Assembly (NCBI RefSeq): GCF_003019675.1
Contig: NZ_CP028105.1
Span: 946,282-1,010,281 of the forward strand
Direction: 5' to 3'
Origin: Fusobacterium ulcerans
Lineage (GTDB): Bacteria; Fusobacteriota; Fusobacteriia; Fusobacteriales; Fusobacteriaceae
Length of the DNA: 64,000 nt
How positions within the stretch are numbered: the stretch's first letter is position 1; the number at the start of each line of letters is the position of its first letter. Under the pieces are notes generated by a model. It searched no databases, was not told the DNA's origin, and saw nothing but the letters and a program-made list of their open reading frames with translations. This document shows, one piece after another, positions 45,689-48,895 of the stretch. The translations under genes were made by a program, and so were the position numbers.

Positions 45689-46744
45689 TTATGAAAAAAT
45701 ACCCATACTTTTTAAGATTTCAATAGTTATTATAAGAAACGGTATCATTGCTACACTAAATATTGAAGACATTAAAGAGCAGCTTGATGTAAGAACCGGC
45801 TCTTTATTAAAATGTATAGTGTATGTTGCAATTACTGTAGCTGCTGGTGTCGCCATCATCAATACAATAGTTGCCAAAGCTATATATGACGTCGTCAATA
45901 CTCCTGTCATATTCATAATAGTATATAAAGCTACAAGAAATACTGGAATTACAACTACTTTTACAACACTATATCCCCATGATATTTTAGATTTCAATAT
46001 ATCATTAAAAGATACCCCTGCTAAAGTAATCCCTATAGACAGCCAAGACAAAGGTGCATTTAAAGAGGCTAGATACTGCATAGGTTTAAAAAGCCAGTAT
46101 GCAGTCTTATCTATTCTTAAAAAAGCATATTTTCTTATTATATCTCCTTCAATAACTGATACCTGAAAAAAATAATTTTGAAACATCCACACAAACATTC
46201 CTAAAAAAGTTGCTACTATTATTGGATTGCTTATTATTTTACCCATGTTTTCTTTTTTTAATTTTACCCCTGCAATTGTCATATACCCATAAGTATATAA
46301 AAGAGCTCTATATGGAATATTAAATACTGAGGCATACATTGCTCCTGTATCCCCATATACAGCTTGTATTACTGGAATTCCAAAGACAGTAGTTGAGCCG
46401 AAAATTGTCATCATTCTCAAGACATCATTCCTGTCACCTGAATAATTTTTATAAAATATTTTAGTAAGAAAAATAAGTACCAAATGAATAACAATACCCC
46501 AAACAAGTATACTTAAACTTTGCTCCAGTTTCCTGCTGTCTATATCCTGCATAAAAGCATTATATGACAATGTAGGAATAGCCAGATTTAAAATAACCTT
46601 GCTCAAACTCCCTGCACAATTAGAAGGAATTACTTTTTTCTTAGTGAAGAAAAAGCCAGCTCCTATTATAACTATAACAGAAGATATTGTTCCTACTATA
46701 TTATTATTTCTCATGATACTTTCAAGTATTTTTCCTATCTCCAT
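45689..46744 (-). CDS. AEC-family transporter (auxin efflux carrier/malate permease type)
   Basis: About 351 residues with ten predicted membrane segments in two halves. SKVILNLAIPTLSYNAF and STTVFGIPVIQAVYGDTGAMYASVFN are typical of the AEC family, which exports or exchanges organic acids. The start at 46744 is preferred over 46750 because AGAGGG is properly spaced only for it. A promoter (TTGAAA 46800-46805, TAAACT 46777-46782, 17-base spacer, minus) precedes it. Substrate cannot be read from sequence. Confidence 0.86.
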   Translation of the reverse strand: MEIGKILESIMRNNNIVGTISSVIVIIGAGFFFTKKKVIPSNCAGSLSKVILNLAIPTLSYNAFMQDIDSRKLEQSLSILVWGIVIHLVLIFLTKIFYKNYSGDRNDVLRMMTIFGSTTVFGIPVIQAVYGDTGAMYASVFNIPYRALLYTYGYMTIAGVKLKKENMGKIISNPIIVATFLGMFVWMFQNYFFQVSVIEGDIIRKYAFLRIDKTAYWLFKPMQYLASLNAPLSWLSIGITLAGVSFNDILKSKISWGYSVVKVVVIPVFLVALYTIMNMTGVLTTSYIALATIVLMMATPAATVIATYTIHFNKEPVLTSSCSLMSSIFSVAMIPFLIITIEILKSMGIFS

Positions 46745-46851
46745 ATACATTCCCTCTTAATTTTTATATTCAAGTAAGTTTATCTTAGTTTTTCATAAAT
46801 TTCAAGGAAAATTTACAAAATATATTCTTTTATATATTAGCTTCAATATTT

Positions 46852-47919
46852 CTATCTTTTCACTTCATAAGTCCAGTTAAATTTATCTTCTGCTTTTCCC
46901 CATTGGATATCTGTCAATGTATCATAAAGTTTTTGAGTAAGTTCTCCAGTTTTAAAATCATTGATCATAGCTATTTCCCCTTTGTAGTTCAACTCTCCTA
47001 CTGGAGAAATAACAGCTGCTGTCCCTGTTCCAAAAGCTTCCTCTAATTTTCCTTCTCTTGCTGCTTCCATCAGAAAATCAATAGTAAAGTGTTCTTCATG
47101 AACTTTGTATCCCCATTCTTTTAAAAGAGCTATACATGAATCACGAGTTACTCCCGGAAGAACTGTTCCATCTATAGGAGCAGTATAGATTTCATTATCT
47201 ATTTTAAACATTACATTCATCGTTCCAACTTCTTCTACATATTTTCTTTCTACTCCATCCAGCCATAATACTTGAGTATACCCCAGTTTCCCGGCTTTTT
47301 CCTGAGCTGCAATACTGGAAGCATAGTTTCCTCCGCATTTTGTAAACCCTGTTCCTCCTTTTGTTGCACGAACATATTCATCTTCAACATATATTTTTAT
47401 AGGATTTACTCCCTCTGGGTAATAATTTCCTACAGGAGAAAGAATAATAATAAACTTATATGAAATTGCAGGATGTACTCCTACAGCAACTTCAGTAGCA
47501 AACATAAATGGACGAATGTACAAAGATGTTCCCTCTAAGTGAGGTATCCATTCCTTTTCATGAGCTACAAGAGTTTCTACTGCCTCAACAAACATTTCTT
47601 CTGGAATCTCTGCCATACAAAGTCTTTTATTAGAATTCCTCATTCTTTTTGCATTCATTTCTGGACGAAATAAAAGAATACGATCATCTGGTGTACGATA
47701 TGCTTTTAACCCTTCAAATGTTTCCTGAGCATAGTGAAGCACCATAGAAGCCGGACTCATAGAAATAGGCCCAAATGGAACTATTCTTGCATCATGCCAC
47801 CCTTGCCCTTCGTCATAGTCCATAACAAACATATAATCAGTAAAATGTTTTCCAAAGCCAAGTTTATCTTCGTCTGGTTTTACCTTTAACTGTTCTGCTT
47901 TTTCTACTCTTATTTTCAT
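46852..47919 (-). CDS. ilvE: Branched-chain amino acid aminotransferase
   Basis: 355 residues of PLP fold type IV, the long BCAT form. The PLP lysine lies in GFTKCGGNYASSIAAQ, the domain opening is YAQETFEGLKAYR, and KYVEEVGTMNVMF and GTVLPGVTRDS match the cofactor-phosphate and interdomain regions. It swaps amino groups between leucine, isoleucine or valine and 2-oxoglutarate. No other ilv or leu gene is near. AAGGGGG precedes the start. Directly upstream lie an intrinsic terminator and a small Ile/Val/Leu-rich ORF, which may form an attenuator. Confidence 0.94.
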   Translation of the reverse strand: MKIRVEKAEQLKVKPDEDKLGFGKHFTDYMFVMDYDEGQGWHDARIVPFGPISMSPASMVLHYAQETFEGLKAYRTPDDRILLFRPEMNAKRMRNSNKRLCMAEIPEEMFVEAVETLVAHEKEWIPHLEGTSLYIRPFMFATEVAVGVHPAISYKFIIILSPVGNYYPEGVNPIKIYVEDEYVRATKGGTGFTKCGGNYASSIAAQEKAGKLGYTQVLWLDGVERKYVEEVGTMNVMFKIDNEIYTAPIDGTVLPGVTRDSCIALLKEWGYKVHEEHFTIDFLMEAAREGKLEEAFGTGTAAVISPVGELNYKGEIAMINDFKTGELTQKLYDTLTDIQWGKAEDKFNWTYEVKR

Positions 47920-47974: not shown

Positions 47975-47999
47975 AAAAAAAACAGCCCGTCAGGCTGTC
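47975..47999 (-). terminator. Intrinsic terminator between the small ORF and ilvE
   Basis: On minus, ACAGCC and GGCTGT form a 6-bp GC-rich stem around a five-base loop, followed by eight T residues. It lies about 55 bases before the ilvE start and 70 after the small ORF stop, all on the same strand. Confidence 0.8.
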
Positions 48000-48067
48000 T
48001 CTAATCAACATTATCAAAATATTCACAAAATTATTATAAATAAATATTACTATTTTCCATTTAGAAT

Positions 48068-48217
48068 CTATTCAAATGAAATAAATTTATTCTTTATAAC
48101 AAGAGGATTGTGGAATAATGTCGCAACTCTTCCTAACATAAATATCTGTATATAGTTTTTTTCTCTGCATATGAGTAGTATATATATGACAAATATTATG
48201 TTTATTATCACGAACAT
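48068..48217 (-). CDS. Small hydrophobic ORF rich in Ile, Val and Leu, possible ilvE leader peptide
   Basis: 49 codons from the ATG at 48217, which has a full AGGAGG seven bases before it. The first 17 residues, MFVIINIIFVIYILLIC, contain six or seven Ile plus Val and Leu, and more follow (YIQIFML, NPLVIKN). It ends about 70 bases before an intrinsic terminator in front of ilvE. Two readings fit: a regulatory leader peptide for branched-chain amino acid attenuation, or a one-span small membrane protein. No family is recognised. An upstream in-frame ATG at 48286 lies at the promoter and is not used. Confidence 0.55.
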   Translation of the reverse strand: MFVIINIIFVIYILLICREKNYIQIFMLGRVATLFHNPLVIKNKFISFE

Positions 48218-48249
48218 CTTTTTTCCTCCTCTTTCTAAAATCTTTTTTA

Positions 48250-48286
48250 TAGGTTTGAGTATAAACCTAAATTTAAAAAAAATCAA
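48250..48286 (-). promoter_or_regulatory. Promoter with overlapping palindrome before the small ORF and ilvE
   Basis: On minus, TTGATT (48281-48286) and TATACT (48258-48263) have a 17-base spacer. The -10 is embedded in a perfect inverted repeat TAGGTTT-N6-AAACCTA (48250-48269), a likely repressor site. The expected start is about 30 bases before the small ORF. Confidence 0.7.
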
Positions 48287-48345: not shown

Positions 48346-48612
48346 TTACTTCATTTTTTTAGAAGCTCTGAATTTTACTGTCTTTTTAGGGTAAATCTCC
48401 ATCTGCTCCCTTGTTACAGGATTTGACACCATTCGCGGCTGTCTTGTGAGTATTTCAAATATTCCTCTTTCTTGAAATTTTACCCCTCCATCTATAGCTA
48501 TCGCTTCCTCTACTGTTTCAAGAAACTTTTCTATCTCTTCTCTTGCTTTTGTTATTGTTATTTTTTCTGAACTCATTTTTTGATATAGTTTTGCCAGCTC
48601 TTTTCTATTCAT
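48346..48612 (-). CDS. HU-family DNA-binding protein
   Basis: About 88 residues from MNRKELAKLY; in-frame ATGs at 48618 and 48624 are alternatives and the choice is uncertain because they overlap the upstream gene. The HU fold is seen in AREEIEKFLETVEEAIAIDG, the strand FQERGIFEILTRQPR and the final VKFRASKKMK. HU proteins bend and compact DNA. It is directly downstream of, and slightly overlaps, a second HU-like gene. Confidence 0.85.
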   Translation of the reverse strand: MNRKELAKLYQKMSSEKITITKAREEIEKFLETVEEAIAIDGGVKFQERGIFEILTRQPRMVSNPVTREQMEIYPKKTVKFRASKKMK

Positions 48613-48895
48613 CTGCATCACCATTAGCTATTTTTATAAGTCTCTTCCCTGCTCGAAATTTTATTACTTTTTTAGGCTCTGTATATCTTGCCTCTTTCCA
48701 AATTGGTACTAATACTTTTCTGGACTTTACTTCTTTTTCTTCAAATACACCCCAGTATTTAAATACTACTTTTTTCTCTTCATCTAAAGCTTTCAGCAGT
48801 ACATCCCAGAATAAATCTATCTTCTTTTTTACTTCTTTATGGCTTTTGCTTTTATTTCTCTTTTTGTAAAATCTTACGAACTCCCCTTCTGTCAT
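48605..48895 (-). CDS. Divergent HU-like DNA-binding protein
   Basis: 96 residues. The HU pattern is looser than in its neighbour: a helical N-terminal half (HKEVKKKIDLFWDVLLKAL), a strand pair VVFKYWGVFEEKEVKSRKV and a C-terminal KKVIKFRAGKRLIK that matches the HU ending. The two HU-type genes overlap by about 8 to 20 bases, so they could form a heterodimer like HU-alpha/beta. AAAGGGG precedes the start. Confidence 0.75.
   Translation of the reverse strand: MTEGEFVRFYKKRNKSKSHKEVKKKIDLFWDVLLKALDEEKKVVFKYWGVFEEKEVKSRKVLVPIWKEARYTEPKKVIKFRAGKRLIKIANGDADE

Follow-up and report, generated by a model that had tools for sequence, protein, structure and literature searches.

Transcription attenuation is a known, textbook kind of mechanism, and several described systems resemble the locus reported here. 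The Escherichia coli ilvGMEDA, ilvBN and leuABCD attenuators (reviewed in PMC6123439) share with it Ile, Val and Leu control codons and the 1:2, 2:3, 3:4 pairing logic. Rli60 of Listeria monocytogenes (PMC5864092) and the Staphylococcus aureus ilvD attenuator (PMC5794164), for which a response to branched-chain amino acid (BCAA) supply has been shown experimentally, likewise combine a BCAA-rich leader peptide, alternative RNA folds and an intrinsic terminator before BCAA genes. In theory, an attenuator becomes more sensitive when its control codons are of low usage (PMC1183508). T-boxes (RF00230) occupy the same place before the orthologous ilvE in Faecalicoccus (L058, 131 bits; L110, 126 bits); an earlier survey counted none in its two Fusobacteria/Thermotogae genomes (PMC2494555).

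The locus lies in the window, i.e. the whole 64,000-nt stretch of Fusobacterium ulcerans DNA that was analysed, and its features are collected in Table 1. With a probability of about 0.9, the region upstream of ilvE regulates this gene by ribosome-mediated transcription attenuation in response to charged tRNA-Ile/Val/Leu; two sister attenuators were found elsewhere in this genome. This reading, put forward in the original prediction, is supported by comparison between related sequences, by codon choice and by the location of a candidate antiterminator. The gene product is readily assigned (TIGR01123, 392.8 bits against a cut-off of 250.05; NF009897, 495.1 bits; Aminotran_4 match). Each element listed in the original prediction is present: promoter, full Shine-Dalgarno (SD) site, 49-codon ORF, eight-T terminator and, 55 nt past the T-run, the ilvE ATG at 47919. 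The promoter, SD and short ORF ahead of the structural gene are conserved and co-transcription is predicted; in all of genera g1 and g5, the leader ATG is preceded by TTGATT or a similar hexamer together with TATACT. An intrinsic terminator separates the leader ORF from ilvE; it consists of the hairpin ACAGCC-TGACG-GGCTGT (47998-47982), whose 3' end merges into a run of eight T (47982-47975). This hairpin was not reported by a first terminator scan, probably because the stem runs into the T-run, and was found by two further scripts.

Table 1. Predicted elements of the ilvE leader region, in window coordinates.
Feature	Position	Strand	Remarks
Sigma-70-type promoter of leader transcript, TTGATT-N17-TATACT	48258..48286	-	conserved ahead of leader in orthologues
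Promoter hexamers of leader	TTGATT 48286-48281, 17 nt spacer, TATACT 48263-48258	-	
TAGGTTT-N6-AAACCTA inverted repeat over -10	48250..48269	-	probably incidental
SD AGGAGG of leader ORF	48225..48230	-	present in leaders found
Leader peptide ORF, 49 codons, MFVIINIIFVIYILLICREKNYIQIFMLGRVATLFHNPLVIKNKFISFE, beginning MFVIINIIFVIYILLIC	48068..48217	-	orthologues found
Control codons 3-16: GTG ATA ATA AAC ATA ATA TTT GTC ATA TAT ATA CTA CTC ATA	48170..48211	-	
Strand 1, AACATAATATTTGTCATATA, core AACATAA 48202-48196	48183..48202	-	5' side of 1:2 anti-antiterminator hairpin; register common to leaders
Strand 2, TTATGTTAGG	48132..48141	-	TTATGTT (48141-48135) pairs with strand 1; GTTAGG (48137-48132) with strand 3
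Strand 3, ACAGCCTGAC, terminator 5' arm and loop	47989..47998	-	CCTGAC 47994-47989 is antiterminator partner of strand 2
Strand 4, GGCTGT, terminator 3' arm	47982..47987	-	
U tract (eight T) of intrinsic terminator	47975..47982	-	
ilvE, class II branched-chain aminotransferase, predicted controlled gene	46852..47919	-	TIGR01123, NF009897, Aminotran_4

The palindrome noted over the -10 hexamer is exact in the window but otherwise unremarkable. Of the three closest relatives, two (L003, L004) have it in imperfect form, and it is absent in other leaders; the window contains 18 exact 7-N6-7 inverted repeats, against ~8 expected from base composition. An operator role was rejected given this lack of conservation and the frequency of similar repeats, and the palindrome is probably not part of the attenuator. 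The leader promoter is directly preceded by two tandem HU/IHF-family genes (Bac_DNA_binding, 48346-48895, minus strand), and no obvious terminator intervenes; a Mem_trans family membrane transport gene (45689-46750, minus strand) lies ~100 bases downstream of ilvE.

The first 17 codons had been described as mostly Ile, Val and Leu, and indeed 11 of residues 2-17 are I/L/V, a density (11 per 16 residues) reached by 0.12% of the 16-residue stretches in 43 window genes. The clustered codons specify the amino acids handled by the gene product, the branched-chain aminotransferase IlvE. In the control stretch of the window leader, Val is encoded by GTG/GTC, Leu by CTA/CTC and Ile by ATA only. Across 20 leaders, rare Val and Leu codons and ATA are strongly over-represented relative to window genes: GTC accounts for 62% of Val (4.3% in window genes), CTC for 21% of Leu (2.4%) and ATA for 93% of Ile (60%).

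Orthologous loci were collected by IlvE searches of the genus and family, after which the upstream DNA was read. An Ile/Val/Leu-rich leader followed by a terminator was found at 18 of 19 ilvE loci of the window type in Fusobacteriaceae, including 8/8 same-genus genomes with this ilvE, 6/6 in genus g5 and the four g12 loci examined. The sole exception, in genus g11 (L120), is an ilvE orthologue without a leader. Genera are given here by unnamed labels (g1, g5 and so forth); the named records L034 (Fusobacterium sp.) and L072 (Fusobacteriaceae bacterium) carry the same leaders. The layout is not a chance arrangement, because it recurs at 18/19 orthologous loci. The peptides themselves are strongly divergent (MLFIILSIIFVIYIILKMKK, MFRLLSIIFVISIILLIS, MLLLNVIISISIIILSVIII, MIETNIKIIVYVILLSWSYYNFI and MSGIFTGFVASVVVLLGAITIL, the last an unrelated leader of a second ilvE copy, counted among the 18), and what stays constant is a block of Ile/Val/Leu codons. 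Furthermore, 2.56 Mb were scanned on both strands for an SD, a short ORF in which Ile/Leu/Val make up 8 or more of 12 residues, and a terminator; within Fusobacteriaceae, the matches are almost exclusively leaders of BCAA genes. Class I ilvE genes of genera g3 (L127, L130, L131) and g13 (L129) carry a different Ile/Leu-rich leader (in g3, the MNTKLKFLFLILLIIIILSSVV type) in which AAGGCTTGAG segments are repeated ahead of the terminator; these apparently represent an independent attenuator design.

It had been stated that no obvious antiterminator arm pairs with the terminator stem. Such an arm does exist: GTTAGG, inside the leader ORF, pairs with CCTGAC of the terminator. For 39 of 42 leaders, an unconstrained duplex search of the whole leader against the terminator 5' arm and loop gave a best partner located 63-98 nt past the leader ATG. 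Both sides are respelled in matching fashion in other leaders, as GTTAAG/CTTAAC (L111), GCTAAG/CTTGGC (L112), AAACAAGAT/ATCTTGTTT (L116) and TATTAGGC with GCCTAATA (L212), and the ilvD leader of another genome (G001, L293) has a 14-bp antiterminator pairing. When strand 3 was swapped among 15 representatives, the cognate sum was never reached in 20,000 tries (permutation p=5e-5); shuffles of the strand-2 region gave a combined p=2e-13, a value that treats related leaders as independent. An antiterminator excluding the terminator is thus seen by comparison, and for the window leader by itself the pairing (6 bp including one G-U) is not significant in energy (p about 0.08-0.17). In a joint g1/g5 alignment 92% of pairs are standard, a level reached by no shuffle, and only one pair is changed on both sides. 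Column-wise covariation within this close set is modest, because the strands are nearly invariant in g1/g5 and the g5 ilvE leaders are in another register; partner swapping across lineages is the better test.

The competing 1:2 pairing of the window leader (Table 1) has its counterpart in the livK and peptide leaders described below, where ACTTAACATAAT pairs with ATTATGTTAGG. The hairpin is found in the same register across leaders (combined p=3e-11, related leaders being counted as independent), with 89% standard pairs compared to 28-48% in slid registers, but it is weakly formed or missing in L115/L116 and in the ilvD leader. Folding places a conserved DNA word, ATAATATTTGTCATAT, on the 5' side of this hairpin in its longer form, where a ribosome held up in codons 3-16 would cover it. 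With the stalled ribosome masked out and strand 4 absent, folding gave a 2:3 probability of ~0.9-1 in 13/13 leaders. Once strand 4 is present, the terminator is favoured at equilibrium in most leaders, stalled ribosome or not. Equilibrium folding hence fails as proof of switching, and antitermination would need kinetic persistence of 2:3, as in the classical model. Unlike several other leaders, the untranslated window RNA before strand 4 favours 2:3 (0.90) over 1:2 (0.13), so its off state without translation is uncertain.

The original prediction had retained an independent small membrane protein as a real alternative, the ORF having its own terminator and ilvE being a mere neighbour. The N-terminal 17 residues, being hydrophobic, could fold into a single membrane helix, and a good SD and promoter are present. 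However, conservation does not extend over the whole ORF: among orthologues its length ranges from 23 to 54 aa and its C-terminal part varies in frame and sequence, while GTTAGG and the terminator persist. The g12 leaders have only 23 aa and polar ends. Strand 2 is read as ATG TTA GG (MLG) in g1 ilvE leaders and as GTT AGG (VR) in most livK leaders; in L211 and L213 it overlaps the stop codon, and in L117 it follows the stop. It lies 77-93 nt from the leader start in leaders keeping the word, and -76 to +11 nt from the stop. In two closely related genomes (L291, G003:C15 about 3800; L292, G004:C111 about 37200) a small upstream indel shifts the leader frame (MLGICLK versus NYVRNLF) and leaves strand 2 and the terminator unchanged. 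As strand 2 is kept through such reading-frame changes, it is the RNA rather than the protein that is conserved. Neither does hydrophobicity explain the rare synonymous codons, and similar leaders stand before ilvE, livK, peptide and ilvD genes alike. A small membrane protein is hence a very improbable explanation. The leaders also form a natural data set in which strand 2 slides through frames and past the stop while the switch logic is kept.

It is about as improbable that the terminator merely serves to stop transcripts coming from the upstream HU-type genes and the leader, with ilvE served by a downstream promoter of its own. A weak promoter-like match (TTTAAA-16-TATATT, 47963-47936) does lie after the terminator, but matches of this quality occur many times per 3 kb in the window, and the promoter that is conserved is that of the leader. 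The earlier view that ilvE lacks a clear promoter of its own is supported, a separate one being unlikely because the distance from the T-run to the ilvE ATG is no more than 21-26 nt in g5. Least probable of all is a riboswitch or T-box binding its ligand or tRNA directly with an incidental ORF, as might be suggested by a terminator-controlled leader before an amino-acid gene and by the T-boxes of the Firmicutes orthologues (L058, L110), given that no Rfam match was found in the window region or at 14 Fusobacteriaceae loci (RF00230 included, the two Firmicutes T-boxes serving as positive controls at 126-131 bits in the same run), that SD, ATG and control codons are conserved, and that both alternative helices lie in or adjoin the translated ORF.

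For the attenuator, we infer a course of stalling, timing and direction of response from what the compared sequences contain, namely the ORF, its codon choice, the terminator, both alternative pairings, conservation at the RNA level and association with BCAA genes. When Ile, Val or Leu is scarce, the ribosome would stall in the control codons and cover strand 1, leaving strand 2 free for strand 3 as soon as the latter is made. With 2:3 formed, the terminator could not close in time and RNA polymerase would continue into ilvE. When the three amino acids are plentiful, the ribosome would move on and strand 2 would be masked or folded onto strand 1; with strand 2 unavailable, the 3:4 terminator would form and transcription would end before ilvE. 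Where the stop codon of a livK leader is close by, strand 2 would be masked by a ribosome positioned on that codon. The stop of the window leader lies 67 nt further, so strand 2 would need refolding on strand 1.

A DNA-word search with follow-up located related leaders before genes for livK-type BCAA-binding proteins. Leader and terminator are present at 17/17 close livK loci examined (g1, g5), counts that leave out second livK paralogues in six genomes; at 14 more distant livK homologues (L226-L239; g4, g6-g12) no leader was found. The livK leader of the window's genome (G000; C1:3042840-3042902, minus strand) is followed by livK, two BPD_transp_2 permeases and two ABC ATPases. The third leader (C1:140075, plus strand) stands ahead of three genes for peptide-binding proteins, which alternate with genes for M20-type peptidases; Pfam was run on the first of each. 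Between this terminator and the first peptide-binding protein gene there is a short ORF, MKNFKTNYSTLLCSSLLLN..., with its own SD (L204 909-1032, G000:C1 about 140408-140531), and a similar ORF occurs in L244. In G001, a leader precedes ilvD-ilvB-ilvC. An automated scan reported no leader at the BrnQ loci and ilvD-family genes of G000, G008 and G010.

The leader list rests on profile searches, the profile covering the first 22 residues. Clear matches in 12 same-genus genomes were obtained at ilvE, livK and the peptide operon only, the weaker ilvD leader appearing amid noise; across the order (96 genomes) the clear matches are confined to g1 and g5. Weak matches include G008:C1:1080280 and G005:C5:31021. 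The possibility had been raised that the small ORF is also conserved away from amino-acid genes. Clear matches stand before ilvE, livK or the peptide operon, with one exception, L309. This locus (292-520, G035:C60), from another genus, has a complete livK-type leader and terminator before a gene that is not livK, and looks to have been orphaned by rearrangement.

No match to acetolactate synthase (ilvB) or ketol-acid reductoisomerase (ilvC) was found in the window's genome, while 14/14 control genomes do match, and F. ulcerans thus appears unable to make Ile, Val and Leu. Since ilvB and ilvC were not found, the switch would govern acquisition and transamination rather than a complete pathway, the aminotransferase presumably making BCAA from imported or otherwise made 2-oxo acids. 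We consider it likely that Fusobacterium possesses a multi-operon regulon of related leader-peptide attenuators sensing Ile/Val/Leu-tRNA charging, which controls acquisition (BCAA ABC transporter, peptide uptake with M20 peptidases, aminotransferase) and not biosynthesis in species without these two enzymes, in place of the T-boxes or CodY of Firmicutes. Sibling leaders are found ahead of several operons of a single genome, each of which serves to obtain or process BCAA, and attenuation would then act as a nutrient-uptake sensor instead of a biosynthesis switch.

It had been noted that no ilvE attenuator is known from this genus, and our literature search, of partial coverage and with much subscription literature outside its scope, likewise found no report of a leader-peptide attenuator in Fusobacteriota. 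With no report found, the novelty appears to lie in the phylum, in the targets and in the grouping of several operons in an apparent BCAA auxotroph. T-boxes differ in reading tRNA directly without translation, and were not found in the Fusobacteriaceae leaders scanned. Rli60 and the S. aureus ilvD attenuator control the ilv-leu biosynthesis operon together with CodY, whereas the targets in the window's genome, where ilvB and ilvC were not found, are a single aminotransferase gene and uptake operons. No sequence relation was seen to the E. coli attenuators, from which the system described here also differs in having strand 2 within a longer leader ORF and in its predicted targets, namely ilvE by itself, livKHMGF and genes of peptide uptake.
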